This document shows, one piece after another, positions 7,056-49,573 of a stretch of 64,000 nucleotides of DNA. Origin of the DNA: Cladophialophora immunda (lineage: Eukaryota; Ascomycota; Eurotiomycetes; Chaetothyriales; Herpotrichiellaceae); the NCBI RefSeq assembly GCF_000835495.1, contig NW_015622543.1, positions 3,770,619-3,834,618 on the forward strand, written 5' to 3'. Each line of letters begins with the position of its first letter. The stretch's first letter is position 1. The notes beneath the pieces were generated by a model. That model was not told the DNA's origin and did no database searches. It saw nothing but the letters and a program-made list of their open reading frames with translations. The translations under genes were made by a program, and so were the position numbers.

Positions 7056-7136
7056 CGAATAAAAGAGCCCTCCTCGACGGATAGTCCCAGAGTGGAGCTT
7101 TCCATAGACATTGCAACTGCGAAAGATGTTGCGACC

Positions 7137-11661: not shown

Positions 11662-12372
11662 GGTGTTTTAGAGGAGTGCAGAAAGGACCTTTTCGACAAA
11701 GTCCTCGGCAACAAGCATCCATCGCAGAGTCCAACATCTTAACAGGTATATCACCAAGCTACCTACTTTTAATTGTCCCTCTTGGGATGCAAGTTCGGTC
11801 CTACCCCGCAATATCTGGACTCTCTTCGACCTCTGACCGCCAATCCTCAAAAAATCAGCACTTGAGATGCGGGATGCAATCTGGGAAGGCCAGGGGCCAA
11901 ATAGTATGGAGGAGCCATGCTCTGCGCCTGCGTCGCCGCTGAGGAAGAAATGATGGTCCATGTGCAGCCTCCGGGGCACTTCTCGCCCCAGAGTTTCCGC
12001 GTTGAGATGAATTCAACCCCGCCACCCACCTCCACATTTGGCGTCCCAGTGACGCTCTGCACAAAGTGATGGAAGCATACACAAGATGCGGATAAGTGAC
12101 GACATTGGGATACAAACTCTGTTTACACCACATATTTCCCGAAGCAGGAATTGTGGGTTGCTCTTGCAGAGCAGAAACGGGGATGAACCTCGGAGAATGA
12201 CTCCACCATCCTTGGAGGGGTTGACTGGACATTCGAAGATGGTCTGACACACTTGAAGCGCACAGCGAACAGTCATGGTATGAAATGTTGGCCAGGGATG
12301 GATTGATCGTGATCTCAACATTCCAACCTCCTGCCCAAAAGAAAGGATCGCACGAACCGCGCCTCAATCGAC
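11662..12372. promoter_or_regulatory. divergent promoter region between two P450 genes
   Basis: A 711-base interval between the starts of two divergently transcribed P450 genes, so it must hold both promoters. No coding exon is supported. I did not identify a specific operator or a clear TATA box. Co-regulation of the two genes is an inference from the shared interval. Confidence 0.5.
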
Positions 12373-14088
12373 ATGACCCCGACGGCATCACTGATCCTTG
12401 GACTTCTAGTCCTCTTCGTCGGACAGAGTTGGCTTCGCTCCTTGATCAAGAGCAGATCCTATAGACTGCCTACCGTGGTCCCAGGCGTCCCAGTCTTTGG
12501 CAACACTTTCCAGATCCCTGCACTTCAGCAAGGACCATGGGCCAAAAAGCTGGCTGAAAAATATGGAGAGATGTGAGCAACATTTGTCCAGACTCTTGAA
12601 GCTTCAGTACCGGGCTAGAAGCCAGACTCACATTATGTTGTTGCTAGGTTCACTTGCAAATTTGGTTCTCAGACTTGGGTGTTCTTGAATTCGTCCAGGG
12701 TGGTGGCTGACCTCATGGAACGCCGGGCAGCTATTTATTCCTCTCGGCAACCCTTTCCCATGACGCAGGGGATCATGTCGGGAAATTCCAGGATCGTGCT
12801 TATGCCCTACAATGAGCAATGGCGAACTCTGCGGAAGATTATGCATCAAATCTTAACTGCTGGAAAGCTCTATATGCCCTTCGAGGATCTAGAGTCGAAA
12901 CAGCTATTGTGGGACTACCTGGAAAAGCCAGATAGATGGTGGTCAGCCAATGGACGATATGCCAATTCCGTGATCATGAGTGTCATTTTCGGCAGGAGAT
13001 CCCACCTGGATGATCCTGATGTCGTCGAGCTTTTCGAAACCTTAGAGCTCTTCCTCGAAAACCAACAGCCAGGAGTCAATATCGTAGACGCATTCCCCGT
13101 CCTGGACCGACTGCCTAGGCGACTCCAGTGGTGGCGCCCACGCGGTGAGAGAATATTCGAGAAGACTAAGAAGTAAGTCAGTGCATTGGGATGGGGTCTC
13201 GCATGATAAGCTTGCCTGAGTTTCGTTGCTAACACGTCACTGAAGGGTCTATCAGAGAGAGGAAGACAAACTCCGTCGAAAGATGCAGGAAGGAACTCAG
13301 AAGGAGTGTTTCGCCACGGCCTTCCTTGAAACGAAGGAGGTCGCTGTGATGAGCGACACTCAGAGACTTTTTGTCTTTGGCACTCTCATGGAAGCTGGTA
13401 GCGACACTTCGAGAGTCACGTTGGGCCAAATCATTGCTGGAGCAGCCACTTATCCAGACTGGGTCAATCGAGCGAGAGACGAACTGGATAAGGTCTGTGG
13501 CCACAACGCCGAGCGGCTACCCCAATGGGAGGATCGCGACCAGCTTCCATACATCACGGCCGTGGTGAAAGAGGGTTTTCGCTGGCGCCCGAATATTGCT
13601 GAGATCGGGGCGCCGACTATGCTCATCAAGGATGACGAGTACGAAGGATACAAGTTTCCCGCCGGAACGGTCTTCACCTGGAATGCATGGGCCATCGCCC
13701 TGAACCCTGATGAGTATGAAGACCCTGAACGCTTTTGGCCCGACAGGTTTCTAAATGACGAGTTAAACAACCCGCTGAAAGGGCACTGGGCTTTTGGACC
13801 AGGTAAGTTAGCCACTGATTCCTTTCGCATATAATTTACTAATCTGGTCTAGGCCGTAGAGTGTGTGCGGGTTGGAAAGTTGGTGAGATGAATGTCTGGA
13901 TCGCCATCGCTCGCCTGCTTTACTGCTTCGATTTTGCCGAAATGCCGGGCAAACCGATTGATACCATGACGATCCCGCAACTCACCAAGCACAGCGCACC
14001 TTTTGACGTCAAAGTATCCGTGCGAAGCGATGCGCATGCGGCTTTGATCAAAAGGGACTGCGAAGAAGCAACGAGAACGAACTACTAG
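12373..14088 (+). CDS. cytochrome P450 monooxygenase
   Basis: Exons 12373-12572, 12648-13172, 13246-13802 and 13853-14088 give 505 residues. The N-terminal signal anchor is LILGLLVLFVG, then a short VVPGVPVFGNTF. Motifs present: I-helix region GTLMEAGSDTSR, K-helix EGFRWRP, FWPDRF, and haem loop FGPGRRVCAGWKVG, whose FxxGxRxCxG is completed by the last splice junction. It shares YSSR, FESKQL/LESKQL and RYANSVIM-type blocks with the P450 at 19442-21229, so the two are diverged members of one P450 clan. Located inside a run of oxidative and hydrolytic genes; expected to hydroxylate a small hydrophobic or aromatic substrate (inference). Confidence 0.9.
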
Positions 14089-14462
14089 ATTGTTAAAAGG
14101 GAAGGAGGCGCCGACTTTCTTATTCTTGAAATCAACGAGCAAGAAAAAGCCACAGTCAAGCATCGGCGTCGTAGGGATATGATGGCGCTCACCGAGAGAC
14201 TAGGATTTCACGTAAGAGTGCATTTAGCCTGCCCTTCCCCCCAATCAAAAAACTTATAATGTGCTCATTGCATAAACGAAACTGTCATGAGTACGTCGCC
14301 TGACAACAAGGACGAGAAGGGTCATTGCAACGACCTAAACGACCATTTTCCACAGAGGATCCATGTAAAATCGAAATGTTATTAGTATGTAGTTCGGAAA
14401 AAGTTAACAGTTATGGAACTCTATAGTCTCTTCACGGCAATATCTACCGCCATTCCCATATC
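14089..14462. other. intergenic between convergent genes
   Basis: About 370 bases between the 3' ends of the P450 and of the FAD monooxygenase. No gene is recognised. AT-rich stretches around 14340-14400 fit 3' untranslated and transcription-end sequence. Confidence 0.4.
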
Positions 14463-15863
14463 TCAGTCCGACGCCCCCCCCACAGCGGGGACGCTCATTG
14501 CCGACCCGGTACCGGCTTCCTTTGCCTTCTCAGGATCAGCGGTATGGTAGTGCTGAGTAAAATTGTATTTGATAACATTGATTCCATCCATCATTTCCTT
14601 CGCGAACTCCAAGTCTGTCACGGTTCGCTTAGCGAGTTGGAGGAACTCGTTGGTTTCTAGCACCGTCTCCGGATCTGAGTCGAACATTAATCGGATGTTG
14701 CTGCTAGATATCGGGTTGATGACTTCGTCGTACTTTTGTCGACGAACTTCCGAGTATATATCGAGGATGGAGTCATCAGCCTTCCCGTGGTAGATGCCCG
14801 TGAGGCAATCGAAGAGTCCTCCCACATCGACGATTCCACCGGTTAGGCCGAGGCCTCCGAAAGGGTTACACACTGTTAATGGGTTAGCATGGCATCAACA
14901 CCGGTATGGAAAGGTCCTCCCACAATGAGCCGCATCGGCTGCCAGCAGAAATCTTCCCGCTCTCATGGACTCGGCCAGCCGCTGGTGAACCCTGTACGGA
15001 CTGAAGTTGACAATCTTGTAGTCTGCTGGGGTTGGATGGCCAGGGAGCATTTCTTGCCATTTTGCTGGCTGTCTCTCTTGCAGCTCCTCCCGAGTGGCCA
15101 CCTTCTCGCCATAGGTGACCCGCCACAAACCACCTTTGGATATCCGAGATGCCATGTACCAATGTTGGGGGTCAATGATGAAATTGGCATCCTCGAATCC
15201 AAATTTGTGGAAGTCGTAGTACACCTGAGGCCAAGGTCAACATGTAGGCAGATCAACAACCGCTGTAGCAGCGGAACGCGCTTCACTCACGTTGGTGGCG
15301 ACGATCTGTTGGTCCCAAGTCTTGCCGGGGAACTCCCAGTCGCCAAAAAGCGAACGTCGGATTATGCTGTTTGCTCCGTCGCATCCCACAATATATGGCG
15401 CCGAGAATGTCTCTTTTCCTGATGGGGTCTGGACATCGACCCAGGCACTGTTGTCATTTTGGCCAATCGCGGTCACCTTGTGGTCCCAAGAGATTGTGAC
15501 GTTCGCCTGCTGCTTCAGATGGTCATAGAGAATCTGGCCAAGTTGATTGAGCGGCAGGCAGATCATGCGATCTGGGTCATCAGCCTGGCAGCGATGATCA
15601 AGACCTGCCAATAAGGTGCCGTCAATTTTGCGCCAGCAGATAACATCGGGGTAGAATCCTTTTGCGCGAATGGCATCCAGTACCCCTGCTCTTCGTAGCT
15701 CATAGACCGCTGGGGGCCCATAGTGAGTCGCTCGTGGTTGCTCATCCAGCTTGGTTGACATGTCCAAAAGATGGACGGAGATCCCGGCTTGGGAAAGCAG
15801 TAGGGATAGCAAGAGCCCAGCAGGCCCAGCACCGACAACTATCACCCATGGTGACGAGGACAT
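14463..15863 (-). CDS. FAD-dependent aromatic-type monooxygenase (PHBH fold)
   Basis: Flavoprotein hydroxylase of the FAD_binding_3 family (PF01494), which uses NAD(P)H and O2, typically to hydroxylate phenolic rings. Exons on the minus strand: 15863-15291, 15224-14924 and 14872-14463, giving 427 residues. The dinucleotide-binding GxGxxG is VVGAGPAGLLLSLLL at residues 9-23. The DG motif is IVGCDGANSIIRR. The GD/FAD-ribityl motif is AADAAHLCNPFGGLGLTGG, regenerated only when the second intron is removed, which supports the model. It is convergent with the preceding P450. Substrate unknown; its context with P450s and hydrolases suits an aromatic metabolite. Confidence 0.88.
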
Positions 15864-16377
15864 TCTTCATAGTTTTTCTACAGCTTCTCAAATTTGCACT
15901 GCCACGGTTCGTGGTTTCTCGTGGGTCGTTGATCTGTGGTATATATTCCACGAAAGGCCGGCTCTGAACATGGCCAGTCATATCCGAGAGGAATTCTAAC
16001 ATCCATCTTTCGAGATCGAGAGCAGGGCTAACCCCCTCTGGAATGTCTCTGGGGCCCCCCACACGATGTTTTTAACCTTTAATGTATTCGGAATGCGCAT
16101 GGACACCAATTAGTCACAATAGTGCCAACGTGCCACCAACCAAGCTACTCCATTTCCAAGCCCAAGACTTGCCCCTCCCCCCCTCCGGCATCCCACAATT
16201 TCCCTTTTGGGAACTTGTTCTCAGTTCCGAAACAGCAGCAGCAGTACACACATCGCATCCAAGCGGGGTGCAGTCATGAGACTTGGAAGACTAGAACAAC
16301 TTCCACAGAGGCCTTCCAGGACATCTCGGGTGGAGGATCGACAGCATAGAAAGATAGTACTATGTAATTACCACTAA
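15864..16377. other. intergenic, upstream of FAD monooxygenase
   Basis: Half-kilobase region with the promoter of the minus-strand monooxygenase and the 3' flank of the minus-strand hydrolase's neighbour interval. No supported exon. A C-rich patch lies near 16160-16190. No RNA gene or repeat recognised. Confidence 0.4.
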
Positions 16378-17226
16378 CTATTTCTTCTCCAAAAGCGCGG
16401 AAAGGAACGCGAGAAGGGCCTGCTGACAAGCCTCTGGCATCTCCACGTATATTTCGTGCCCTCGTCCATTGATGACTTCAAGATGCGCGTGTTTCACAGT
16501 TTGCTGAATTCCCCGTTGCTCCTCTAGTTTCGTAGCAGCACTGTTTGCGGGAGCAAGAATGAGCATCGGCGCCTTAATGTGTGGGAGGTATTCTCTCGAA
16601 TCCAACGTGGACAGGAATTTCGCGTAGCCGGCGAGCCCTTCGGCCGAAGACACGGCAACTTGGTCTATCCACCAAGATAGGTACTTTTCGTCGTCGACTG
16701 AAACTGTGCCGGGCACTCGTGACAATGCTTCTGCCCACCCCCGTGAGCCCAACTCACGACAAGCCGTGGGCCAGTCTTTGTGGCCAAATGCAAACAGAGA
16801 CAGCGCAGCCGGCGGTAAAAATGTCGGTGATGAGCAAATTATCAAAGATCGCACCCGTTCAGGATGCTTGCACGTAAAAGCCTCTCCGACCATGCCGCTG
16901 GTTGATTCTCCAAGGAAGTGAACTTGGCCTACGTCCAGTTGGTCCAGGGTGTCGACGATCTCATCGCAGATAGTGTCAATAGAATAATCATAGATCCGTT
17001 CATTTGGTGTGCTAGAGTATCCATGGCCCCGAGCGTCGCGTCTGATAACCCGGTATTTTCTTGCAAGGACCGGAATCCAGTGGTACCAGAAGGCCGCATG
17101 TCGACCAAACCCGTGCTGAATGAGAATGGTCTCTCGTGGCAGCCATGGATCCGTAAAGTCATCGACGATGACGTGGCTTGTTTCGCCGTTTGGATGTGTG
17201 ATAACCCTTCCAGAAGGGCCCGTCAT
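16378..17226 (-). CDS. alpha/beta hydrolase
   Basis: Single-exon 282-residue alpha/beta-hydrolase fold protein of the enol-lactone / meta-cleavage hydrolase-like group. Visible elements: oxyanion strand ILIQHGFGRHAAFWYHW, cap-preceding RRDARGHGYS, nucleophile elbow FLGESTSGMVGE, and C-terminal histidine in NGRGHEIYVEMPE. The elbow reads G-E-S-T-S rather than the canonical GxSxG, so the second glycine is replaced by serine directly after Ser-Thr. The protein may still be active. No signal peptide is seen, so cytosolic location is likely. It is divergent from the carboxylesterase across 237 bases, suggesting joint control and perhaps sequential ester or lactone hydrolysis. Confidence 0.85.
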   Translation of the reverse strand: MTGPSGRVITHPNGETSHVIVDDFTDPWLPRETILIQHGFGRHAAFWYHWIPVLARKYRVIRRDARGHGYSSTPNERIYDYSIDTICDEIVDTLDQLDVGQVHFLGESTSGMVGEAFTCKHPERVRSLIICSSPTFLPPAALSLFAFGHKDWPTACRELGSRGWAEALSRVPGTVSVDDEKYLSWWIDQVAVSSAEGLAGYAKFLSTLDSREYLPHIKAPMLILAPANSAATKLEEQRGIQQTVKHAHLEVINGRGHEIYVEMPEACQQALLAFLSALLEKK

Positions 17227-17463
17227 GGCTCAGATGCCGTCGAGATTAAAGTATTGGTCTTGTCTGCACTTTCGAGATGGAGACGAAGCAAGACATGAGG
17301 AAAAAGATTCGGTGCATGTGGAGGCAGGTTCTTACTTATTTTAACGGTTCTCCACACGGCAGAACCCCCGTGCGGTCTGTATAGAAAGGAACCGTAATTT
17401 CCCTCCATTCCCTGCAACCCCCCCGGGCAAGAGCATCGAAAAGACCGAGTCACTAATTACATC
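17227..17463. promoter_or_regulatory. short divergent promoter, hydrolase / carboxylesterase
   Basis: Only 237 bases separate the start codons of two divergently transcribed hydrolytic genes, so both promoters must lie here. Contains a C-run near 17417-17424. No specific factor site could be assigned. Confidence 0.5.
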
Positions 17464-19297
<1,834 letters not shown>

Positions 19298-19441
19298 ACT
19301 GATATAGATATCGTGATGTATTGAGCATCTATGCCGCGAATATAGAGAAACACTCGAGACCACCTTTTAGGAAGATGCGGGGTCAATCCACGTAACATAA
19401 AACATTGAATTTGTGCCAGTCTCACAGTCGCTCCTCACAAG

Positions 19442-21229
19442 CTACTTTGCTGCTCGGCGTTCAAACTTAATACCCTCCTTTTCCGCTGCTTCGAATGTTT
19501 TCCGGATCGTGGCGGCATGCGCGGGTGACCTGACGGTCAGGTTGGCCTGGAAGGGCTTCGGAACACTAAGAAAGCCCCGGACCATAGAGGTGTCTGGCTC
19601 GATAGTTTGTCCATCTGCTCCTACCGGTTTCTTGATATTAAAGCCCCATAAGGTTCGTACAATGTTGATGTACAGCGATTTCTCGGCCACATGCACTCCT
19701 GGACACACTCTACGGCCAGCCCCGTATGTAAAATGATCTCGTTCGTACGGGTCGTTCACGTTGATGTATTCCGCCGCGGGTAGTGGCTTGTTGAGGTATC
19801 GCGATGGATCGAACGTCTCCGGGTCCTTGTAGAGTCCAGAATTCATATGGATTGCCCTAGGACACATGCAAATTAACCCTCGCCTGTGTATAAGGGCATT
19901 TCAGTTTAACTCACCACCAGTTGAGCATCACAACCGAGTTCTTAGGGATAAAATACCCCTCGTACCAGTCGTCTTCGCTAGTGTAGTGAGGCATTCCAAA
20001 CTTGTTCACAGCTCGCCACCGAAGAGTCTCCTTGACCAAGGCCCTGACAAAGGGGAGATTCGGCTCGTCTTCCCACGTCGGCATACGAGAGCCGTCACTA
20101 CCGATGACCCGGTCGACCTCTTCCTGTGCCTTTTGCATGGCCTCGGGGAACAGGAGCATGGCCAAGACAAAATTGTTCAAAGTGGTGCTGGTAGTTTCAG
20201 ACCCGGCCTCAACGAGCCCACCACACATGTAAGCCGCCTGCAGATCGTCAATGCCGTGCTGGTACGGGTTACTCAAGAAATAGTCCTTGCAGAAACATTC
20301 CGCCACAGTGCCTTCCTGGACCCCTTTCTTAAGGGTCTGCCAAAGGTCCATGTAGACCTTGCTGTCGTGTGCAAACACCTTCTTAGCGTGGGATCTCCAG
20401 CTTCCGAGGAGAGATTGAGGTAGATTTGCCAAAGAAGGGAAGCTGTCCACAGCATGCGCACCAGGAGCCGTCATCTCGGTGAGATTGTCGAGAACGGTGT
20501 ATATCTCCTTAACTAGGGGATGCTCCCAGGTAGGAAGACGATATCCGTAGGTGAGCAGCATAATCACTGATGAGCTGTAGCGACGGTTATGTTCGTAAAA
20601 CCTGTCCGGCGTGTCCAGGAACTCGACCATGAGTTGTTTTGACTCAAAATCCTGAACAGGTTGGTATTTGACCGCACTTGTGGCGTTGAGTAAGGCATGG
20701 CTCGACTTCCGCAAGTTTCGCCAGTCGGGGCCATAGGGCATGAACAACTGTCGTTTCCCACCACTGGCAACGTCCTGAGCAAAAGGTGATGGTGCACGCG
20801 ACGAATAAATGTTTGACTTCTTGTCGAGGCAATCTTTGACTGCTTTTGGCGATGACAGCCAAATGTAGTCTGTGCCTCCGATTTTGGTATAGAACACATC
20901 CCCAAATTGTTCATGCCACTTCCTAGCCTTCTGTCTGACGAGCTCCGAGTCAGCCAGATCTAGGAGATTGCCGATGAATGGATATCCCCGAGGCCCGGGT
21001 GGTAGGTGCCTCCGTCGGCTGTCCTGGGCGTGAAACAGTCAGCTTTAGAAATTTGTACTACGAGGGAATCCAAAAATACCTTCCACTTGGAGGGCGTTGA
21101 ATAGAGATACAGGCCGAGGAGGCCCAGCAGGGATGTCACCAACAGGAGCGATATCAATCTGTATGTTGCTCCAAAAAGTTCGTTCAGCTGGTTGTGAGGG
21201 AACGGCAACGACATTTTGTTCAATGCCAT
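19442..21229 (-). CDS. cytochrome P450 monooxygenase
   Basis: Exons on the minus strand: 21229-21080, 21023-19915 and 19856-19442, giving 557 residues. The N-terminal membrane helix is LISLLLVTSLLGLLGLYLY. Removing intron 1 creates the proline hinge LPPGPRGYPFIGN. The I-helix region is CGGLVEAGSETTSTT, the K-helix is KETLRWR, the PERF region is FDPSRY, and the haem loop FTYGAGRRVCPGVHVAEKS has the cysteine ligand. Intron 2 removal joins VVMLNWW to AIHMNSGLYKDPETF as in homologues. It resembles the P450 at 12373-14088 in several blocks. The start was taken as the ATG at 21229, since an upstream frame extension lacks family similarity. Confidence 0.9.
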
Positions 21230-29773: not shown

Positions 29774-31574
29774 ATGGGTCTCGGTATCTTGGAACCCAAA
29801 ACCTCCCTTCAGCATGTGCCCGGAACCACATTGCTCGATGTCCATGATCAGGCGGCCGTCGATACAACGCAGTTCTTGAAGAAGGGCACCGGTCGCAATG
29901 CCCATGTCGTCTTGATCCCGCAGCCCTCCCATGATCCCAGAGACCCTTTGAATTGGCCTTTGTGGCAGCGAGATTGCATCCTTCTACTCTATGGTGCATG
30001 CACTATTGCAACGATTGGGTAGGTCGTGCTAAACATCAGACCCATTATATGATAAGACGTCGGACTAACACAAATCAGGCTTGGACCAATTCTCTCGCCC
30101 GTAGTTGTCCCCCTCATGATGGAATTTAAAGTTAGCTTTACCGATGTCTCCCTGTTGAGCGGATACAACTTGTGTGCCACTGGTGCAATTGGAATCTTTA
30201 TGGCTTGTTTGTGTCGAAAGTGGGGGAAACGGCCGGGATTCCTGCTTTCCATGACTTTTGCTTTCGGCGGCTCACTCTGGGCAGCTTGTGCGCATTCTTA
30301 TGGGTCACTTCTCGGTGCTCGTGTGATGCAAGGCTTGAGCATGTCCTTCTTTGAGAGTATCGTTTTTTCTGTCATTGGAGATCTTTACTTCGTGCATGAG
30401 AGAGGGAAACGCATGGCCGTCTACATCTGCTCCCTGTCGGCAATCACGAATATACCAGTCCTTGTGGCTGGTACTGTCCAAGAGGTGCTTGGGTGGCGCT
30501 GGATCTTCTGGATCTATTCGCTGTTCCTTGGAGTCTTGTGGTTGCTCTCAATCTTCTTTGGCTGGGAGACCGCTTTCAACAGAGACGCGATCTATGAGGT
30601 CGATGTTTCTTCCCACGAGGTACGTACGATACTGACCCCTTGACCTCTGATTCGAAGCTGATTGAATCGGGCAGAATCTGCACATAATCGAGGAAATGAA
30701 GGCCGCCGATGCCGAGGTATGGAATGATACGCAGATTGAACATGCTGATGAAGCCAACGCATTGGCCGGTCCACACGATTTTCCATGGCATCGGCGCCTG
30801 GCTCCAATCAACGGCACATATTCGCCTGCTCCAATCGTGAAGATGGCTATCTCCCCATTCCTAGTGGTGATCAACCCGGCGGTGATCTGGTCTGCCTTGA
30901 CAGTGGCCTTTCCCGTGCTTTGGGTGGTTGGTATCTCGCTTGTGACTGCTCAGATCTTCTCAGCACCACCCTTTCTGTTGACACCAAAACAGCTTGGCTA
31001 CATGTCGGGAGGCCCAGTTGTGCTTGGGACGCTGGCAAATCTAGTCTGCGGGCTCATCTCCGATTCGAGTGTGAAATGGCTGAGTCGCCGTAATGGTGGC
31101 ATCTACGAGCCAGAGTTCCGATTGTTCTTGATGATCGGCCTTGCAATCTGCGCGGCCCTAGGCTACTACCTGATGGGCCATGTTGTGAAAGTGGGAGGTA
31201 GCGTGGTCGCGGCATCAGTCTGCTATGGCATCACCGTGGCCGGATGTCAGTTCTCGGCTGTCTGCGCCGGCACATACATGGTCGACGCCTTCAGGGCACT
31301 CAGCATCGACGTTTTCATATTCACCATGATTTTCAAGAACTTCTTGTACTTTGGCTTCTCATGTGAGTTATCGTCTACTGAATTGCTTCGATTTGGTCCT
31401 GACCTTCACATAGATATCTTGAACGACTGGGTCACTATGCAAGGTCCAACATACTTTTTCTACACCGTCGGCGGTATTCAGCTGGGCCTTACGCTTCTCA
31501 CCGTACCACTTTACTTCTACGGGAAGAAGATTCGTGCCTGGTGGCATGTACAGCCGATCGCGCAGAAGTTCTAA
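29774..31574 (+). CDS. MFS transporter (DHA1-type)
   Basis: Plasma-membrane drug:H+ antiporter-like protein of 544 residues. Exons 29774-30018, 30079-30619, 30675-31362 and 31414-31574. The N-terminal cytosolic tail holds DPRDPLNWPLWQRD, the usual lead-in to helix 1 in fungal DHA1 transporters. GARVMQGLSMSFFES and DLYFVHERGKRMAVY match the conserved helix 4-5 blocks. A hydrophilic central loop (IIEEMKAADAEVWNDTQ) separates two six-helix halves. The final helix region YFFYTVGGIQLGLTLLTV is followed by a basic tail. It is at the end of the oxidative cluster, so export of its product or uptake of its substrate are both plausible. Confidence 0.88.
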
Positions 31575-34617: not shown

Positions 34618-35012
34618 TCACTCCAGCCAGTCTGCGGTCCGAGCGCCCTTTTCGGAAGGGTCACGCTTTTCAAGCCAGTCTGCCGTCAAAGACCCCGTCT
34701 CGGAGGGCTCTCTCTTTTCTAGCCAATCTGCCGTCAACGAACCTTTCGCCGAGGGTTCACGCTTTTCCAGCCAGTCCGCAGTCAATGAGCCCGCCTCAGA
34801 AGGTTCGCGCTTCTCCAACCAGTCTGCCGTCAGAGAACCTTTCTCGGAGGGCTCACGTTTCACTATCAGGGCAGAGATTGGCTGAGGCCCGCCCTTTTGT
34901 CATCAGCAAACGGACACTGGGATAGAGATTCCTTTGGACGTACAATGATTGGAAGGCCAGCAACCAGCTGGACGCCTAACACAACGGCCAGAAATGCCGT
35001 GGAGGACCGCAT
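34618..35012 (-). CDS. Kex2-processed repeat precursor peptide (RiPP candidate)
   Basis: Small secretory precursor of 110 residues. Exon 1 is 35012-34944 and exon 2 is 34881-34618, with a 62-base GT...AG intron. A typical signal peptide (MRSSTAFLAVVLGVQLVAG) leads to a short propeptide (LPIIPISALIV). Five units follow, each preceded by Lys-Arg: four of the form EPSxxGSLTADWLE and a last one, DPSEKGARTADWLE, which ends the protein. Lys-Arg is the Kex2 cleavage signal in the Golgi, so five 14-residue peptides would be released. Without the intron, the reading frame stops before the repeats. This layout matches dikaritin-type RiPP precursors. No cysteine is present in the repeat units, which argues against an alpha-pheromone. 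A UstYa-family oxidase lies 1.8 kb away. Confidence 0.85.
34621..34854 (-). repeat. 48-bp tandem repeat coding for five core units
   Basis: Units on the minus strand: 34854-34807, 34806-34759, 34758-34711, 34710-34663 and a 42-base last unit 34662-34621. At protein level residues 4-5 vary (EK, EA, AK, ET, EK), while P-S, G, T-A-D-W-L-E and the Lys-Arg spacers are kept. Nucleotide differences are largely synonymous or confined to the variable pair, which suggests selection on the peptide. Confidence 0.92.
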
Positions 35013-35143
35013 GATGGTAGCGGGCTGCGGGACTTTGGAATTGGTATTGAAAGGAGGTGAAACTCTGGGCAAATATCAGTTTGATGTCGCTGGAAAGCTT
35101 TGAGAGACCGAGACGAACGGCTTCATCTCGATCATCTCGCCTC

Positions 35144-35149
35144 TTTATA
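35144..35149 (-). promoter_or_regulatory. TATA box of the precursor gene
   Basis: On the minus strand GTATAAAGAG lies about 135 bases before the precursor start codon, a usual TATA position for a strongly expressed fungal gene with a short leader. Assigned by sequence and position only. Confidence 0.45.
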
Positions 35150-35832
35150 CTCGAGTTCAACAGTGAGGCTCGGTATTTCCACTTTTGGCCAGTCCGTCCT
35201 ACCTGGGTAACGATATCCGTTCCTCGACGTCCTCCCAACAGTGGCGGTATCGGAGAAATCCTCCCGCCAACCCCCAGCACTGATCCCGTGCCAAATTCTC
35301 GACGTCGATACTCGGACGACGCTCAGGAATGGGTTTAGCACCGCTCTTACGATGCAGGTTGGTCTCCGTCTCTCACACTACAAACTGCACGACTCAATCC
35401 TGAAGGTATTCGGGGCATCGTTCCGGAGAGAGCTCGAAACTTCAGCGTCAGTAGGCGAGAAAGTGGAGAATCAGAAGGACGGTGGATCGGGGACTATACG
35501 GGGAAGTTCCTTAGATTTTGAGCAAGCCAGTCGTCGGTGGAAATCTACTCTGGAGTGTCGCCCAGGGGGGAGGGGGCGGGGTCATATGTCGTCGTGTCCC
35601 AAGAATCTAGAACATCTCTCGAGGAATCTCCCTCGACAAAGATGAGTAATTGATCAACAGACAGTCAGCACGTACTTTTCACCCGCGTGCAGCGGAATGT
35701 TGGCACTCACGGAGCACCGACAAGCATAGATTCTAGACGCTGCCAGGAAGTACTCTTCGGCTCGATAGACGTTAAAGTGGGATTAGCGGTATAACCACCT
35801 TCTACTTCGGGCTATGTTTTCTATCCACCGTG

Positions 35833-35865
35833 ATAAGCGCTAGGTCACAGTAATAAGCGCTAGGT
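35833..35865. repeat. direct repeat with palindromic core (candidate operator)
   Basis: Two exact copies of ATAAGCGCTAGGT spaced by 20 bases start-to-start. AGCGCT within each copy is self-complementary. Position between divergent precursor and oxidase genes makes a regulatory role possible; no known factor was matched. Confidence 0.5.
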
Positions 35866-36793
35866 TTGGAGTTCCCATGCGCCGTGTCTCCTTATAAGGC
35901 ACAATCCCCAGAGAGCTAAAGTCTTAAATGTTGGAATTGTTCATAAGCACTAAGGGTTCGGGTGCAGGGAGCGGTCCCCGCTCTCAGATCTGTCCACCTC
36001 AATACGGCTCAGATATCGATGAATTCGTATTCCGACTCCCGAGGGCCCAACGGTGTCCAGGCAAGTATGGAAAGTGACCAAAATGCATCGTTGTGCAGCT
36101 TGAGGAGAGCCATGAAATCGCTTGAGGCATGCTGACTCTATAGATGGCAGGAACGTGAAGCTGGTAACTTGGCATGACGAAGAAGCAGGATACCATTCGG
36201 GCTGGCTATCGCGTATAGTTAGTGCCCTTTTTCTCCTTGCGGAGATCACCTTTAACGGAAAAGTGAACGAAGCACGACGCATCGTATAGCGGTCCGTGCT
36301 TTACGTAAAGAGGATCGAGCTCTCGGCATTCCTTTCTGATTGCAGGTGCGTTGAGAACGAGGCGGTGAGTTCGAAGGTAAGAAGCTCAAGGAAACGGCTT
36401 GAGGTTGACCATCGACCGCCAGTAGTATTCAAAGAAAAGCCAGGGATGACACAAGCGCAGTCCTAGCTTGCGGTGCGTGGCTCGTGAGTGTACTGCAGCA
36501 TAGCAGGCGGGATCCACCATCCTTCGTCCAGTTCACGGCACCACCTCTGCCTGTACCTCAATGCGTCTTGAATTCCGAAGTGGTAACTTGTCTAGGTATT
36601 CGGGATATTGTGACCAGGTGTGGTATCGAGTCATTGCGTAGGAGGAGGATCGAGGACCCCAGGAAGCTTTTAGAGATGACTGTCTCCCCTGTGACAGACT
36701 GGCATCTCAAACATCCACCGCTCTTACCTTGCCCAGCCCCAAAGGCCTCTTTCCCTTGCTTCTGTAGATACAGAGATCTCATCTCGCCTCACA

Positions 36794-37854
36794 ATGGACT
36801 CGGCAGAGTCGTCGTCGAAGAGCCTGTTGTTGACTTACCGCGACTCGCTTTCTGACGGCGTAGACGAGGCGTTATATCATACTGAGAAAAGACCTGTTCA
36901 TCGGAAATGTCCATATCCATCACTTTACACCGCCATTGTTCACCTCGCCATCCTCATCCTCGTTCCTGCGGTGATTGTTCTACATCGGCGGGCCGGAAAG
37001 GGACAGATTAATGATCCCATGCTCCAACTATACTGTGAGAATTAGCCCGTCGAGCGCGTCATAGAGAGCCTCCAGCCACTAACTCGCGGTGTATCCAGCT
37101 CCTGTCAACGACCACATTGAACATGAAATCAAATTGATCAAAGGAGGCTTTGCGTTCAGCAATGACCCTGACGCAAAGGCATACGTTGGGTCTAGCAACG
37201 CCACGAACGAACTGTGGTTAGATCTGTACCAATATTGTTCGTGACGAAACCTTCCCTCGGATCGATCGTGGGATAGCCGAGAAATTGACATACTTCGCAA
37301 CAGCGGGACCGAGCATCATTTCCGCCGAGGAGAATGCTCTCCTCCCTCAAAAGACTTCGAATATCAAGGGCCATCCAGATAAGCACGTCATGATCCTGGA
37401 AGTCTTCCACGAGTTACATTGCCTGGTAAGTAACATGACCGGCCGCCTCCCGCGGGAGATGTATTAGTAACTCTAACTGTATGCTCAGGATCGTATTCGT
37501 CAGAGTCTGTACCCCGAGACATTCGGATGGGTGACCTATCCGGACGGAACCAAGGACACGAAGAAAATGGGCCACCTTGGTATGTTCCACGAGCCGTCTT
37601 GCCCACATAAGACAAGGAGACCGATTGAAGACTGAGACAACATCGACTGACTCCCATTTCATCTCGGACCAGAACACTGCGTCGATCTGCTGCGACAGAC
37701 AATCATGTGTGTCGGGGACACGAGCGTGGGGATCTTCCAGCGACAAGAAGATGGCTCCTTGAAGGCCGATTCGGATGTCTTGAGGGTGTGTAGAAGCTTT
37801 GAGAAGATCCACGAGTGGGCTGCGGGGCGACATGCTCAAGTCGCTGTCGCGTGA
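36794..37854 (+). CDS. UstYa-family (DUF3328) oxidase
   Basis: Member of the UstYa/DUF3328 family (PF11807), whose characterised members carry out oxidative cyclisation or other tailoring of fungal RiPPs. Exons 36794-37034, 37099-37236, 37304-37425, 37489-37579 and 37673-37854 give 257 residues. There is a short cytosolic N-terminus, then one membrane helix (IVHLAILILVPAVIVL, residues about 45-60), then a lumenal domain. Both family HxxHC motifs are present: HELHC near residue 162 and HLEHC near 197, the second followed by VDLLRQ and completed by the last intron. The preceding GPSIISAEENALLPQKT also matches the family. Proximity to the Kex2-repeat precursor indicates they work together in the secretory pathway. 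Confidence 0.9.
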
Positions 37855-38685
37855 TTTTCAGAACTTGTTCTCTCGGTATCTGAGCCGTCGTTCGAGAATC
37901 GAGATTTGGAACACCCGGACAACACCGCCTTGACCCGATACTCAGTTTATTGAATTCTCGGTAAAAACTTGGTTTCCGTAACGAGAGCGAGAATTCATCT
38001 TGGGGTGGACTCGTTTGGCTCGGACGATGTCGTTCAGATCCAGCGTCAAGGGGGGGGGGNNNNNNNNNNNNNNNNNNNNNNNNNNNNNNNNNNNNNNNNN
38101 NNNNNNNNNNNNNNNNNNNNNNNNNNNNNNNNNNNNNNNNNNNNNNNNNNNNNNNNNNNGGGGGGGGCTAGATAAAGGCGAAAAGGGAACCAAAATCGAA
38201 CAATCTACCAAACACCTATATCTAGCCGGAAGTAACCCACATGGCCCAGGCCGAAAAGGTGCACACTCGGCCTCCGAAATCGCCGTCAGAAGCAGCAGGG
38301 AACCGCGGTCTGGGAGCTTGCCTGAGGGCTCGAAACAGCAGTCTTATAGAGCCCGTTTCCAGGTATTCGGCGTATGCCCGACAGCGCCTTGCCGTAAGGG
38401 GTATGTATCGACGGCCTGAATAGGCACTTGTATATCACAGGCATGTCATGTTCTACCCGAAGCAATGCCTTTAATCGAACATGATAATTCTTCGACGTCC
38501 GGCTTTTGACCACTTGGCCCCCAAGCAAAGAATAGAGTTGAAACTGAGAGCATGTTCAATTGGCTCTGGCTGACGTCTTTCATGGATCAAGGGTGGTGTC
38601 CACAGACTGACGGTTGCGGGTCTTGTAGAGACCGATTCAATAGAGCCACCACTTTTGCAGGAATCGAGACTGTTTACACGCGGCT
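37855..38685. other. intergenic interval containing an assembly gap
   Basis: Holds a run of 100 N at 38060-38159 flanked by G homopolymers (9 G on the left, 8 on the right). The length of the gap is therefore nominal. Nothing coding was recognised on either side. Any additional small gene of the RiPP locus could be hidden here. Confidence 0.6.
38060..38159. other. assembly gap (100 N)
   Basis: Exactly 100 N with G homopolymers on both sides. A round number indicates unknown true length. Confidence 0.98.
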
Positions 38686-43682: not shown

Positions 43683-46600
43683 TCATGTCGTTTCGTTGAC
43701 TGGCACAACAGTTGCCTCTGAAGGTGGTGATTGCTCGGCCGATGTGGTTCCCGACATTTCGTGATCACTTTGTTCTGTTTGCTTGGTAGGCTTCTCCTGA
43801 CTCGGCTTGGTGTTGATACCAAAAGGGTCTTGTAGTTCGTCCCGCGGGGAAAACCAACCTCCCCTCTCCCATTTGCCCGGCTCGTAGACACATTCGTTCC
43901 GGGCGTCCTCGTCGACAATCCCCTTTAACAGCAAGTCCACACGCTTGAAATCCACCGGTTTCAATATCCACCCGTCGAAGCCTGTTTGCACATATTTGGC
44001 GTGCTCCTTCTCGACAAGCGAAGCAGAGACCGCAAAAATAGGAATCCGTCCGTTGTGCCCAGCTCTACTGGAGAGACACGACTTGCCGTGGGTTTTCTCG
44101 AATGACCGAATCATCTTTGTGGAGCTGAATCCGTCCACAATGGGCATTTGAAGGTCCATCAGAATGGCGTCGAATGAGGCTGGCTGTTCACCGTGGGCCG
44201 AGGAACACTCCTCACCATTCACCGTCAGATGGACCGCGTGTCCAAGCTTTTCTAGACGTTTCCTCATTATTTTGCTGTTGATGGGGTCGTCTTCCGCGAC
44301 TAGGACCGAGAAGTTATCGGATGATGTTGCTTTCGGCGTTTCGGTTGTATCAGATCTTGTGCCTACAGATTCCGGCTCTTCGAAAAGGACCTTGGGGCCA
44401 GATATTGATCCGCTCGGCTGTTCAGGCTGGTTATTAGGTACTCGGATAGGTCGCAGAGGAGTCCCAGAGTCTTTTATCTTCTCGGACCCTGGTGTCCGAG
44501 AGAACGCAAACTTCAGTTCTCTTGGAGAGGGGAGACTTTTCGATTTGGGAGCATTTGGGGAGGCTTCTGATAGATTTAGAGAGATGCGGCGAGAGTCTTT
44601 GGCGCTAAGACTAGAACTGCTATTCGGTTGCTCAGCCAGGTGCAAAGGCTGCTGAATAGCGTCAATGAGTCTGTCCGCGTCACTCCTCTGGCTCGCATCG
44701 CTTTTGAGGCTGAGCCCACTCTTTCCGCTCTTCAGACTTGCCAGGCTGTTCATGCTCCCAGCACTTTCTCTACGAAGCAAGGGAGGCGGCTCGGAGGCTT
44801 TTGGCAGGTTCTGGTAGATCAAGGTGACTTCGCCTTCACGGTGTCCTCCAGAAGTGGAAGGTCGAGAAACTGCACCTGATGATTGAGGACGATGGTCGAG
44901 TTGAGCGGGCTTGGACCCTCCATTATCAAAGCTTAGAACAATGACGAATCGGGAGCCTTTTCCCTCTTCCGTTTTCACTCGCAACTGCCCATTCATATTC
45001 CGAATGGTACGTGCTACAACAGCGAGCCCGAGACCGAGAGCCATGTTTTCGGATTGCGCCTTATCGACGAACCTATCACTCGTGATGGCTGTATGGCTCT
45101 GCAGATCCTCTTCGTAGGAAACTTCTTCAAGTTCTCTAAACAAGGCGTCGACTTTGGTCTGAGACATCCCTACCCCGGAATCCTCGACGACGACTTCGAT
45201 CTCGGTCTTGCCCTGCGCTTGTGCAGTGGGCAAAGTATACGCTTCGACGACGACTTTTCCTTCTTTTGTGTGCTGTATCGCATTCGCAATGAGGTTAGAC
45301 ACCACTTGTCGAACTCGTCGATAATCTCCCATGACCTGTTGAGGCAGCTCGGGCTGGATCGAGACCTCGTACTGTAGATTTTTTCGCTTCGCATCGCCAA
45401 TAAAAGGATCAGAGGCGTCCTTCAAGGTCTGAGGGAGGTTGAAAGGCTCATCCTTGACCAGGGTCTGTCCCCCTTCTGTCTTCGTGAGGTCCAGCAGATC
45501 GTTGATGACATAAACCAACGATTTCGAGGCGGAATGGGACCTAGCCAGGTTCTCTCGGGTGTCCTGGTCCAGCTGGCCTTCGAGCGCGATCTCCAGGTAG
45601 TTAATGATTGCATTCAACGGGGTGCGAACCTCATGCGCGGAATTCGCAAGCAGAAGACGAGTGAGCTGACTGTTTTGAAGGGCCGCTTCTTTCTGCCGCC
45701 AGACCTCGATGAATTTGCCGTAGACAAGACACAGGACCGACGCTGTCTCTATCTCCTCGTCCGTCCAGTCTCGACATCGACCTACGATGGTCTCGCTCCA
45801 CGCTTTGAAGCTTGTTCTGGGTTCAAGGTAGCCTTCAGTTCCTTCCCTGATGAACTTTTCGTAGGGATTGCCAGCCCATTTAACTTCTTGCAACACACCT
45901 TTACGGAAAAAAGCAATAAAGTCATTGCCACCAGTCGACAGAGGGACGAAAAGGACACCCGCCAGGAATTTCCAGCCCGGTTCGTATCGCAGATCAGGAA
46001 AATCGTTGCTGATGTCCTGGGAGCAGAACACGGCGCTCATCCCTCTCATCCGAAGGTATTCGACCATGGCAAGGACCTCTTGGAGGTGGCCTCGGGGGTG
46101 GCCCAGGATCTTCGTCTCATCCCTAATAGATAGTGCACCGACATCAGCGTCGAACAATTTCAATAGGTCGTCGGATGAGGCCACGATATACCCCGACGGG
46201 TTTGTTGCGGTAGAGGAGGTGTTGATAAGTTTACGAGCTTGCAACCTGGAAGCGTAGGAAAGTCGTTCCACATTTCGAGAGGCCGTGTCACCGACTAACC
46301 GACACATCTTGCGGATGGGGAACGACACCCTCATCCCCTTGGCTCCATATGAATGGCAAGAAATCAATCCCCACAGTTCATTGAAGGCGTTGATTGAGAT
46401 CGACATGGATGACCGGACGCCCATGTTGGCGAGATACTTCAGGTGGATCGGAGACATCGCGCGGAGGTTGGCATGTGTCATATCGAGAGGCTTCTCCAGG
46501 TCTTCCACGGTCCTGCACACGAGTCGGGCTGTCTCCTGATCTCGATCGTAGAGCAGGCGGACTTTGTTGATCTTATACAGATCTCGCGCCTGTTTGGGTA

Positions 46601-48125
46601 TGTCGGATGCGGGAAAGTTCAGGCCCTTGTACAGGTCCTTGGTCGATCGAGGATCAACCAGTTCTGCAACCACTCTCCCATTCCAGGCGTTGTCGAACTG
46701 GTATATCATGACACGATGAAAGCCGGTCAGTTCTTTGACAATCCCAATGAGGACTTTAAGAAAGGTTTGTAGGGTTGGCGCATTGGCAAGTTGTTCCTGT
46801 ACCTGGGACATTATGTTGAATACTTCCATTGCTGCTGCCTCGGTTCTCTTCTTACGAGCGCTCCGCAATACGCGTAAGGGTTTGCTAATGTTGACAGTGC
46901 TGTCCATGAGTTCTTCCACGGTAGGATTACTTCCAAGAGTGTTTTCAGGGACTGGTGGAGTGATGTCCTCTGGCGAAACCAACGGATTCCTTGTGTCGTC
47001 CTCGATCTCGAACTCACAGATCACTAACCCGGAATCTGTCTCGGACAGGTGCATGGCACACCATAATCTCCGGGTTCGAGCCTGCGGAGGTTTGATCGAC
47101 AGGAGAAAAACGTCCGGTCCATTTGCGACCACATCTCCTGCACCCTCCTCGCGGATAAAGTCCAGGTGATCCAGCAAATTGTCTGCTTGATCTTCGCTGA
47201 GAATGTCGAGGAATGATTCGAGTTTGAAAAGTTGATGAGGGGTATATCCGATAATTTTAGCCGAATTCTCGCTGACCACACGTACGACCAGCTTTTCGTT
47301 CTCTTCGCGGAAAGCAATGAGAAGACCAAAACTCTGAATGGCGCCAGGAATATGAATTGGCTCATCTTCGCATCTCTGTAACGTCTCCCCATCCCTTCCC
47401 GTAACTACAGCATGGCCACCGTCGGTCACAACATGCTTGAAGCGTGCCGTGACCAACCCTGGTTCCGACGCTGCTGAGAGTGGTACCCCACCGGACAAGC
47501 TCGAGATTTCCGACTTGTTGGAGACATCATCCGCAATGATATTATTCAGAAGCTGATGGTCGACATTTCCAAAAGAAGGGGTCATAGAGCCAGCATCTGA
47601 CGCTTCCGATATTGACGCGTGCCTTGTGGAAGTGGACACACGTCCCAGAATACTGCGGCTCGCGGTTCTAGAGCCAGTCGGAGGTCTCATCCCCGGATAA
47701 CCACCAGCTAAATCCATTCGAGGCATTGGAGTAGCGACGGGATCGATGGAAACGGTCGAACGGACAGGGAAGACACGATTAATAGACCCTGGACTCAATG
47801 TCAACTTGCCTTCATCCGATCTTGCCGATAGCGAAGGCGATACCGGTGGTTCAGCATCAGATCGTCCCGTGAACATGCTGACATGTGACTGAATGGGTGC
47901 AATAGGTATCCATGTTGGAGGTGTTTGATGCTGGCGCAGGGTCGGAGAGGCCGAACTACTGGCCTTTCCTTGGGTAGGTGGTGGTAAAGGATTTGCGTCC
48001 TTGAAGGGATCCGAAGAGTCGGGGGAAGCCTGGCCCGACATGTTTGTAGAATCTTCTCCAGGGCCGGAGGCAAGTTCGAGGACGCGAGAGATAGAAGTCC
48101 CTTGGGCACTTGTGTTGGTACCCAC
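43683..48125 (-). CDS. fphA: fungal phytochrome hybrid histidine kinase
   Basis: Red/far-red photoreceptor and hybrid histidine kinase, 1480 residues in one uninterrupted frame. Order: a long Ser/Pro-rich N-terminus; a PAS-like domain with the biliverdin-attachment cysteine (Cys about 252, RCEDEPIHIPGAIQSFG); GAF (FPASDIPKQARDLYKINKVRLL, SPIHLKYLANMGVRSSMSI); PHY; HisKA with the phospho-accepting His in SAHEVRTPLNAI (about 830); HATPase with VVEDSGVGMSQ and ALGLGLAVVARTI; and a receiver with Asp in AILMDLQMP (about 1322). In A. nidulans FphA represses sexual development and links light to secondary metabolism. The start at 48125 is the first ATG of the frame. An additional 5' exon starting near 48148 (MSSPAH) cannot be excluded. 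Confidence 0.93.
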   Translation of the reverse strand: MGTNTSAQGTSISRVLELASGPGEDSTNMSGQASPDSSDPFKDANPLPPPTQGKASSSASPTLRQHQTPPTWIPIAPIQSHVSMFTGRSDAEPPVSPSLSARSDEGKLTLSPGSINRVFPVRSTVSIDPVATPMPRMDLAGGYPGMRPPTGSRTASRSILGRVSTSTRHASISEASDAGSMTPSFGNVDHQLLNNIIADDVSNKSEISSLSGGVPLSAASEPGLVTARFKHVVTDGGHAVVTGRDGETLQRCEDEPIHIPGAIQSFGLLIAFREENEKLVVRVVSENSAKIIGYTPHQLFKLESFLDILSEDQADNLLDHLDFIREEGAGDVVANGPDVFLLSIKPPQARTRRLWCAMHLSETDSGLVICEFEIEDDTRNPLVSPEDITPPVPENTLGSNPTVEELMDSTVNISKPLRVLRSARKKRTEAAAMEVFNIMSQVQEQLANAPTLQTFLKVLIGIVKELTGFHRVMIYQFDNAWNGRVVAELVDPRSTKDLYKGLNFPASDIPKQARDLYKINKVRLLYDRDQETARLVCRTVEDLEKPLDMTHANLRAMSPIHLKYLANMGVRSSMSISINAFNELWGLISCHSYGAKGMRVSFPIRKMCRLVGDTASRNVERLSYASRLQARKLINTSSTATNPSGYIVASSDDLLKLFDADVGALSIRDETKILGHPRGHLQEVLAMVEYLRMRGMSAVFCSQDISNDFPDLRYEPGWKFLAGVLFVPLSTGGNDFIAFFRKGVLQEVKWAGNPYEKFIREGTEGYLEPRTSFKAWSETIVGRCRDWTDEEIETASVLCLVYGKFIEVWRQKEAALQNSQLTRLLLANSAHEVRTPLNAIINYLEIALEGQLDQDTRENLARSHSASKSLVYVINDLLDLTKTEGGQTLVKDEPFNLPQTLKDASDPFIGDAKRKNLQYEVSIQPELPQQVMGDYRRVRQVVSNLIANAIQHTKEGKVVVEAYTLPTAQAQGKTEIEVVVEDSGVGMSQTKVDALFRELEEVSYEEDLQSHTAITSDRFVDKAQSENMALGLGLAVVARTIRNMNGQLRVKTEEGKGSRFVIVLSFDNGGSKPAQLDHRPQSSGAVSRPSTSGGHREGEVTLIYQNLPKASEPPPLLRRESAGSMNSLASLKSGKSGLSLKSDASQRSDADRLIDAIQQPLHLAEQPNSSSSLSAKDSRRISLNLSEASPNAPKSKSLPSPRELKFAFSRTPGSEKIKDSGTPLRPIRVPNNQPEQPSGSISGPKVLFEEPESVGTRSDTTETPKATSSDNFSVLVAEDDPINSKIMRKRLEKLGHAVHLTVNGEECSSAHGEQPASFDAILMDLQMPIVDGFSSTKMIRSFEKTHGKSCLSSRAGHNGRIPIFAVSASLVEKEHAKYVQTGFDGWILKPVDFKRVDLLLKGIVDEDARNECVYEPGKWERGGWFSPRDELQDPFGINTKPSQEKPTKQTEQSDHEMSGTTSAEQSPPSEATVVPVNETT

Positions 48126-49573
48126 GAGCGACGTGTGCTGGCGAGGACATGGATGAAGGCGTTAGAACACCCGCATATTGGTGCACCCACCGAATTCCGT
48201 TATTTGTTTCCCTCTTCTGGGTCTCGACCAGCTGCGATGTATTGGATCTTTCCACCAGAACTGAGTAGACTTTCGTCGTCAACCGTCACCCGAGTAGCTC
48301 CAACTCGTCGGCGCAACGAAGTACCGCAGTCGATTGTGAACAAGGTTGAGGAAGACTGCAGGCAAATTCAATCGGATAGAAGCCTGCTGATGTTGACTAG
48401 AGGGATAAGTCGGGCGGGAGGAATTCGGGTCTAGGTATGAATCGATGCGCGAAATGTCGTCAGAGGATGGATAGAAATGTAGGAAGGTTGCCCAGGGGCT
48501 AACAGGACCAGAAGACACCGTCAAGCTGTAGATGTGGTAGGGCGAAGCCCCTGTCAAAGGGTCAATTGATCTCAAGCGTGGCGATCGTCAAGAGTGACCG
48601 TGTTGTACCAGTGCGCCGGACAAAGGCAATTGGAAGGTGGAATTTAGGTAGGATGGGAGGCGATAGTTGCAGATGCAGCATCGACGCCGAAATCAGGTGA
48701 GAAAAAAGAGTGGGATATGAATATACGAGGTTCAGGATCGTGTTCGTATGGCGCAGGTGAGAAGATTGAAGTTGTGGTAGTAGTGGTTACGGTGACGGCC
48801 AAGCAGTGTGAAGGGAAGGTGGGAAGAGAAGCGAGCCCGCAGGTTTGGGTGGCTGCGTGGCGCGGGACACGACCACCACCTTCTCAACGACGGGAAGATC
48901 TATCCATGGATTTTCTCTCCCCCTGTCTGTGAAAAGAGGATCCCGAAAGTCGAACAGTGGTGTCTTCATCGTCCCTCTCTCGTTACTGGGCGCAACACTA
49001 TTCCTAACGTACCAACTTCTCCACATGCTACCCTTGTTTGACGACTCCCCGTCACACACCAACGAACCTAGGCTAGTGAAGCACAGTTACCGCCTGCAAG
49101 ACTTTCTCTGGTTCCAATCTTATGTCTTTGGGGCTTCAATCGTGTCCAGCCTAGGCCTGGACGATATGGATAACTAGGCATGGTCTTCATGCTACGCTTC
49201 CTAGAGGAGTAAATCGAGATGACTGACATTGCTTCAAGGAGAACTTGGAACCATGACCCCTCAGACGACCCCCCTTTTTTCACCCCAGGCCACCATGCGA
49301 GATGACGAAAATGGCTTGTTCGCGTAGGTGGCGAACGATCTCGCTTGCTGAAGAGTTGGACAAGTCTTACGGGGCGCTTGGATCACGCAGTTGGGCGGAA
49401 CACACGCTACTACGCTCCTACGCCACTGACGGAGGCCCCAAATTCCCATGCGCAACAAAATGCAATTGTTTTGTCAGCCCCTGGAAATCCCATCCCAGGC
49501 CCCAGCGCCACAGACGGGCAGGAGTCAAAGGGGGTTCAAGTCCCCAGAAGCACCAGCTGCTGTTTGCCCACCC
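48126..49573. other. fphA upstream region
   Basis: About 1.4 kb upstream of the phytochrome start and downstream of the dehydrogenase pseudogene. It probably holds the fphA promoter and a long leader, possibly with an untranslated exon. Short GT-rich segment at 48764-48795. No gene recognised. A GGGGGTTCAAGTCCCC hairpin-like stretch at 49525 resembles a tRNA T-arm but lacks the other arms. Confidence 0.45.

Follow-up and report, generated by a model that had tools for sequence, protein, structure and literature searches.

A Kex2-repeat precursor with tyrosine-free units next to a UstYa gene: a probable two-gene, dikaritin-like RiPP locus

Analysis of a 64,000-nucleotide stretch of fungal DNA (the window), which belongs to an assembly of 42.2 Mb in 39 contigs, points to a two-gene, dikaritin-like RiPP system, in which a Kex2-repeat precursor would be trimmed by Kex2, Kex1 and a Ste13-like peptidase and then modified by the product of an adjacent UstYa (DUF3328) gene. 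We estimate the probability of this reading at roughly 70%. An earlier note on the same DNA had inferred the dikaritin class from the precursor alone, so that the adjacency of a UstYa gene is an independent test of that assignment. The outcome supports it: a complete UstYa gene with both HxxHC motifs was found 1.8 kb away, and the homologues of both genes carry consecutive locus tags in Cladophialophora immunda. The coordinates of all features are collected in Table 1.

Table 1. Features of the precursor-UstYa locus and precursors found at other UstYa loci of the genome. Positions refer to the window, except for L014 to L028, for which positions in the stretch round the locus are followed by contig positions in brackets.
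Feature	Position	Strand	Remarks
Precursor gene, Kex2-processed repeat protein, two exons	34618..35012	-	110 aa (62-nt intron) or 114 aa (50-nt intron); homologue P0001
Signal-peptide-like start MRSSTAFLAVVLGVQLVAG	34956..35012	-	read by eye
62-nt intron, GTACGT..GCTGATGAC..CTCAG	34882..34943	-	GT..AG; yields 110-aa frame
Alternative 50-nt intron	34894-34943	-	acceptor AAG, in frame, 114 aa; fits C. immunda protein
Repeat unit 1 KR-EPSEKGSLTADWLE	34813..34860	-	translated gene
Repeat unit 2 KR-EPSEAGSLTADWLE	34765..34812	-	translated gene
Repeat unit 3 KR-EPSAKGSLTADWLE	34717..34764	-	translated gene
Repeat unit 4 KR-EPSETGSLTADWLE	34669..34716	-	translated gene
Repeat unit 5 KR-DPSEKGARTADWLE	34621..34668	-	translated gene
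Intergenic region	35013..36793	.	1.78 kb; separates divergent precursor and UstYa genes
UstYa/DUF3328 (PF11807) gene	36794..37854	+	5 exons, 257 aa, complete; model checked against CLAIMM_11739
UstYa exons	36794-37034, 37099-37236, 37304-37425, 37489-37579, 37673-37854	+	last exon includes stop
First HxxHC motif, HELHC	37408..37422	+	residues 162-166 of UstYa gene model
Second HxxHC motif, HLEHC	37573..37680	+	residues 196-200; interrupted by fourth UstYa intron
L014 precursor	7104-7646 (C5 4221103-4221645)	-	ten units, (EP)n-ETGYIAILGNK-type, between two UstYa matches
L017 precursor	5951-6538 (C1 5871951-5872538)	+	nine units EEDTERGGIPW, the first AEDTERGGIPW
L021 precursor	8598-8996 (C1 8174598-8174996)	+	four 26-residue units, D[AT][IL]ESNLFGWLIAVADYDGED-type, ~2 kb from UstYa matches
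L028 precursor	1886-2188 (C2 913886-914188)	-	six units SPETDIYHAT[IA], ~1.5 kb from UstYa match

The ATG of the precursor gene is located at position 35012 and its stop codon at 34618-34620, which confirmed the previously reported boundaries and added the strand (minus), left unstated before. Exon 1 comprises 69 nt from the ATG and exon 2 runs to the stop. With the 62-nt splice, the protein starts with MRSSTAFLAVVLGVQLVAG, continues with LPIIPISALIV and ends in five units of the form KR[E/D]PSxxG[S/A][L/R]TADWLE. By eye, a hydrophobic stretch, LAVVLGVQLV, was noted after MRSSTAF (best 10-residue mean hydropathy 2.61), and this putative signal stretch is largely the same in the C. immunda homologue. 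The proposal of a 62-base intron stood in so far as the splice has GT..AG borders and an in-frame product of 110 residues. However, the 50-nt alternative is the one that matches the C. immunda protein P0001: it adds GGPQ, and P0001 reads GLPII-GGPQ-PIS with identical residues. Since P0001 presumably stems from automatic gene prediction, both acceptors were kept as alternatives. Kex2 sites and repeat units are identical under the two introns.

Translation displayed the five 14-residue units described earlier, all of them preceded by Lys-Arg; near-identical repeats set apart by dibasic sites are characteristic of Kex2-repeat proteins. The reported near-perfect conservation of PS..GS.TADWLE was borne out as well: no unit deviates at KR, P, S, G or TADWLE, while GSL is present in four of the five units and replaced by GAR in unit 5. 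Tyr and Phe are absent from all five units, each of which harbors one Trp. At the precursor, Tandem Repeats Finder reported an array with a 48-nt period, 4.9 copies and 73% matches. A search of the 42.2-Mb genome with the repeat as query, in which two residues per unit were guessed and the best candidates only were scored, returned three matches, all inside the precursor array.

The DNA of the units is far more diverse than their peptides. In pairwise comparison of the units, 10-15 of the 48 bases differ, and the differences are distributed over codon positions 1, 2 and 3 as 22, 14 and 85. Pooled over the five units, pS was 0.774 and pN 0.089 (pN/pS 0.11). Six amino-acid changes relative to the unit consensus were observed. 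In a neutral null of 20,000 simulations with an equal number of base changes, the mean was 23.8 and the lowest value 14, so that none came down to the observed value. The repeat array is beyond chance. Its units are old at the DNA level, each peptide copy has been retained, and strong purifying selection acts on them. A functionless repetitive open frame, fortuitous or decayed, would have to accommodate this low pN/pS at saturated synonymous sites, the simulation result and a close homologue in C. immunda, and we regard its probability as negligible.

Searching the whole genome with the PF11807 (UstYa/DUF3328) profile gave 22 exon matches, one of which lies in the window (37303-37827, plus strand, 75 bits). 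The gene modelled around it contains introns of 64, 67, 63 and 93 nt; a suspected frame change turned out to be the 67-nt intron upon comparison with CLAIMM_11739. Residues 45-63 form a hydrophobic stretch that was taken, from its hydropathy, as a transmembrane helix. The DUF3328 protein CctR has been shown to be a binuclear copper enzyme that is dimeric, bound to the membrane and dependent on HxxHC(x)nHxxHC (PMC12435403), and by homology the window UstYa would be a membrane-anchored binuclear copper oxidase. For P0002, the AlphaFold2 structure built on an alignment of three sequences was of insufficient quality (mean pLDDT 36.7, pTM 0.26), and a sequence search matched none of the PDB chains.

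The region between the two divergent genes is a candidate shared promoter. A Pfam scan of two of its open frames (35211-35642, plus strand; 35953-36300, minus strand) gave no match. At 35826-35865 it contains a 20-nt sequence in tandem (CACCGTGATAAGCGCTAGGT plus a copy matching at 90%), possibly a regulatory site. Two runs of exactly 100 N occur in the window (38060-38159 and 61502-61601), the first with poly-G flanks and just past the UstYa gene. They are probably scaffold gaps, in which a further gene could hide.

Comparison of the precursor with 5.8 billion proteins (E up to 10; 4,905 candidates) matched a sole protein, CLAIMM_11740 (P0001) of C. immunda, with an E value of 6e-41. The two proteins are identical at 84 of 95 aligned residues, and the CLAIMM_11740 model comprises four units, terminating within the fourth. 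A piece of the window UstYa gave three matches from 11 candidates at E up to 0.001. The best one, CLAIMM_11739, is identical to the window UstYa at 254 of 257 residues and covers model positions 16-219 of 220 of PF11807 with 127.6 bits (cut-off 25). CLAIMM_11740 and CLAIMM_11739 are evident orthologues of the window precursor and UstYa. Their tags are consecutive, and for each of them a contig of 149,234 bases is given; therefore, the pair has very probably been kept adjacent in C. immunda, with gene order deduced from tag numbers. Both are annotated merely as hypothetical proteins. The precursor, previously called undescribed, is thus unnamed, but its C. immunda homologue had already been deposited.

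At a distance of 3 kb from the precursor lies an MFS transporter gene (29774-31574, plus strand). Its C. immunda homologue, CLAIMM_11755 (95% identity), is again assigned to a contig of 149,234 bases, and its tag is 15 away from that of the precursor homologue. The MFS gene was dropped as a cluster member, since by tag number CLAIMM_11755 is no neighbour of the other two genes. Its placement reflects local rearrangement or gene gain or loss between the two genomes. Among the proteins searched, those of C. immunda were the closest to the window proteins. As the precursor-UstYa pair is very probably conserved but synteny with the MFS gene is lost, a two-gene unit is favoured.

DUF3328/UstYa is regarded as the class-defining dikaritin enzyme; the original five-gene definition (Ding 2015) included multiple DUF3328 genes, a tyrosinase and a methyltransferase, some of which are missing from later functional clusters (as outlined in PMC12048977). 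The window combines a repeated-core precursor with Kex2 sites, its signal peptide read by eye, and a neighbouring UstYa with two HxxHC motifs. Judged by sequence, the locus would fit the DUF3328-based definition, not the original five-gene one. The window contains a single UstYa match out of 22 instead of multiple DUF3328 genes, and none of the genome's 11 tyrosinase or three S41 peptidase exon matches. A methyltransferase was not found among the 44 window open frames scanned with Pfam, which are part of the window's frames; one DUF6919 match was discarded (15.5 bits, cut-off 27).

The closest design is that of the asperipin-2a locus of Aspergillus flavus, where a secreted Kex2-repeat precursor is accompanied by one DUF3328 gene; its units are typically 8 residues long as opposed to 14 in the window precursor (survey text, PMC7329392). 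The asperipin-2a core carries Tyr side-chain crosslinks, whereas the window core has no Tyr and one Trp. The asperipin-2a cluster also has a reductase and a transporter, for which no counterparts were identified at the window locus. Ustiloxin and phomopsin loci have a signal peptide, cores between KR sites and a nearby UstYa homologue in common with the window locus, and their repeats typically comprise 13 and 14 residues (PMC7329392, same text). In contrast to these clusters, which have at least two UstYa genes, the window locus possesses one; tyrosinase and S41 matches are missing from the window, and the units contain neither a YxI core nor any Tyr, the residue crosslinked in this subgroup. 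Moreover, the window units have X-Pro after KR, whereas no Ste13 action is predicted for the ustiloxin and phomopsin precursors (PMC6339444).

Tyr is crosslinked in ustiloxin, phomopsin and asperipin according to the survey text (PMC7329392), and for victorin a crosslink of Phe is described (PMC9233826). A Tyr-free, Trp-containing pair would be unlike these four systems. It is not rare among predictions: out of 7,878 Kex2-repeat proteins surveyed, 1,758 had DUF3328 next to them, and in this group roughly one repeat in three lacks Tyr (PMC7329392).

From the architecture of the locus we infer the following course of processing and modification. The signal peptide would take the precursor into the ER. 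In the Golgi, Kex2 would cleave after each Lys-Arg and Kex1 would strip the basic residues, leaving five near-identical 14-mers. In unmodified form these have calculated monoisotopic masses of 1560.7307, 1503.6729, 1502.7253, 1533.6835 and 1573.7372. Kex2 and Kex1 processing is established for this precursor class. A Ste13-like dipeptidyl peptidase would probably trim the N-terminal X-Pro, which would result in the 12-residue peptide S-x-x-G-S-L-T-A-D-W-L-E. The adjoining UstYa would then oxidise the conserved TADWLE end, most likely through a crosslink or hydroxylation involving Trp12, and the finished peptide product would be secreted. The release of five small peptides, as claimed before, agrees with the five KR-led units; their final length is probably below 14 residues, as X-Pro suggests Ste13 trimming. 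Profile searches of the genome yielded a single match to the Kex2-type P-domain and a single one to DPPIV_N. X-Pro directly follows the dibasic site in all five window units and in all four units of P0001. The intervening residue varies (E, D, H, Q) over these nine units, while Pro is constant. A Ste13-type X-Pro dipeptide after the Kex2 site thus occurs in every window unit as it does in alpha-pheromone precursors, a resemblance in sequence. X-Pro and X-Ala are named as Ste13 substrates in pheromone precursors (PMC9769878).

The main rival explanation makes use of the same trimming: Kex2, Kex1 and Ste13 would release a secreted peptide that stays linear and unmodified and acts like a pheromone or as a signal, and the UstYa would serve another pathway. 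The variable X and fixed Pro of all nine units suit it, as X-Pro/Ste13 signatures are typical of linear pheromones (PMC6339444). So do the missing Tyr residues and the composition of surveyed repeats, in which Tyr is present in 65.6% with and 38.2% without a DUF3328 neighbour, and Trp in 20.5% and 24.5%, respectively, so that Trp is not enriched next to DUF3328 (PMC7329392, survey text). Nevertheless, the UstYa adjacency is maintained in C. immunda by tag number, and with three exceptions the annotated pheromone precursors discussed in the same survey text are without a DUF3328 neighbour (PMC7329392). On balance, we consider a linear product unlikely; should it prove linear after all, this would be an ordinary gene for a secreted peptide.

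The mature alpha-pheromone of ascomycetes contains a WCxxxGQxC-type motif. This motif is absent from the window units, which argues against a pheromone-like peptide and led us to reject alpha-pheromone identity. The corresponding DNA pattern had eight matches in the genome (control pattern, two), with the motif in frame at six of them, once each. None of the six in-frame loci has it in a repeat array, which is no proof that the genome is without a pheromone gene.

Within the dikaritin-like reading, Trp12 was proposed as the target because the core contains neither Tyr nor Phe. This choice is weakened by the survey frequencies given above, since Tyr and not Trp is enriched in DUF3328-linked repeats, and the Trp step is put forward as a proposal. 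That UstYa makes a Trp-centred crosslink, or another oxidation of Trp, Leu or Thr, on a Tyr-free peptide trimmed in alpha-pheromone style is a tentative idea of which we are rather doubtful. If true, a copper peptide cyclase would be coupled to pheromone-style processing, and the products would make up a Trp-macrocyclic subclass of fungal RiPPs.

The remaining UstYa matches were inspected as well. The 22 matches were grouped into ten loci, and the stretches round the nine loci outside the window plus the window itself amounted to 228,009 bases. Frames with at least three similar segments between dibasic sites revealed a Kex2-repeat precursor at five of the ten loci, compared to none of six control stretches (60,000 bases, arbitrarily placed). 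Two hits in a reversed-sequence control were both repeat arrays in backward reading. Ascomycota are credited with a mean of 5.25 Kex2-repeat proteins per strain in the survey text (PMC7329392), from which we calculated a chance expectation of about 0.03 in 228,009 bases. With a small control and a published mean that rests on other criteria, the co-occurrence is supporting evidence and no calibrated test. Arg-rich, long or shifted frames obtained in a looser first repeat scan were not regarded as precursors and were absent under the stricter scan.

The L014 units contain the cores GYIAILGN, GYIAVSGN and GYFNVLGN with differing spacer counts, and a signal-like start is present upstream. The L017 precursor also has a signal-like start, and its units contain Trp and no Tyr. 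Of the two UstYa matches at this locus, the nearer one is some 5 kb from the precursor, and about 20 kb past both of them there is a tyrosinase match (C1 5844707). For L021 and L028, a crude test within 700 bases upstream detected no signal-like start. One L028 unit has an extra EP dipeptide. Thus both L014 and L028, which are UstYa-linked and Tyr-containing, exhibit variable numbers of X-Pro dipeptides, which look like spacers. Because these spacers share X-Pro with the window units, X-Pro is no argument against modification, which takes weight from the linear-peptide explanation. L021 and L017 fit the X-Pro pattern less well, as two of four L021 units start with DA and the L017 units with EE or AE. 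The X-Pro spacers of three UstYa-linked precursors (window, L014 and L028) bear on the proposal that pheromone-type precursors gave rise to modified peptides. In the survey of Umemura, type P-3 (W with P) consists of seven proteins, four of them with DUF3328, and occurs in Fonsecaea, Cladophialophora and three genera of mushrooms (PMC7329392). This type might correspond to the window precursor family or to the GGIPW precursor of L017.

The Agaricomycete -AADW peptides (Lentinula, Pleurotus) likewise derive from Kex2 repeats with Ser near the start and (T/A)ADW near the end, and the ...TADW end of the window units has a likeness in SGTGEASAADW and SGVAADW; the Pleurotus precursors have X-Pro/X-Ala motifs, comparable to X-Pro in the window (PMC9769878). 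These mushroom peptides were detected as linear molecules ending at W, whereas the window units go on with LE and have a UstYa neighbour (PMC9769878). At such length similarity proves nothing, and the likeness feeds the linear-peptide explanation too. Perhaps the -TADW end is related to the linear -AADW peptides. Kex2-cut repeat proteins also include structural or surface-active proteins such as the Rep1 repellents of Ustilago, the peptides of which form amyloid-like fibrils (PMC9769878). A structural role of this kind for the window precursor is highly improbable, given that its units are acidic, largely hydrophilic 14-mers in just five copies beside a UstYa, with no apparent sequence hint of amyloid or wall attachment.

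The window precursor may already be included in the lists of the published Kex2-repeat surveys. TADWLE, GSLTADW, CLAIMM_11740 and CLAIMM_11739 were not found in literature text, a search that mostly covered papers outside subscription, and none of the Cladophialophora papers listed, viewed by title and start of abstract, dealt with the precursor-UstYa locus. The biological role, at a guess, is that of a secreted bioactive or signalling peptide. With its two genes and its Tyr-free Trp core, the locus is a simple system to ask what else DUF3328 copper enzymes do.

A comparison with a plasmid collection gave no match, as expected for a fungus. Elsewhere in the window, a fungal phytochrome-type hybrid histidine kinase with PAS_2, GAF, PHY, HisKA, HATPase and response regulator domains is encoded at 43683-48161 on the minus strand. 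Several P450 open frames are located at 10684-21038, interspersed with a hydrolase and a frame that is weakly esterase-like; this region is possibly a separate metabolic cluster.
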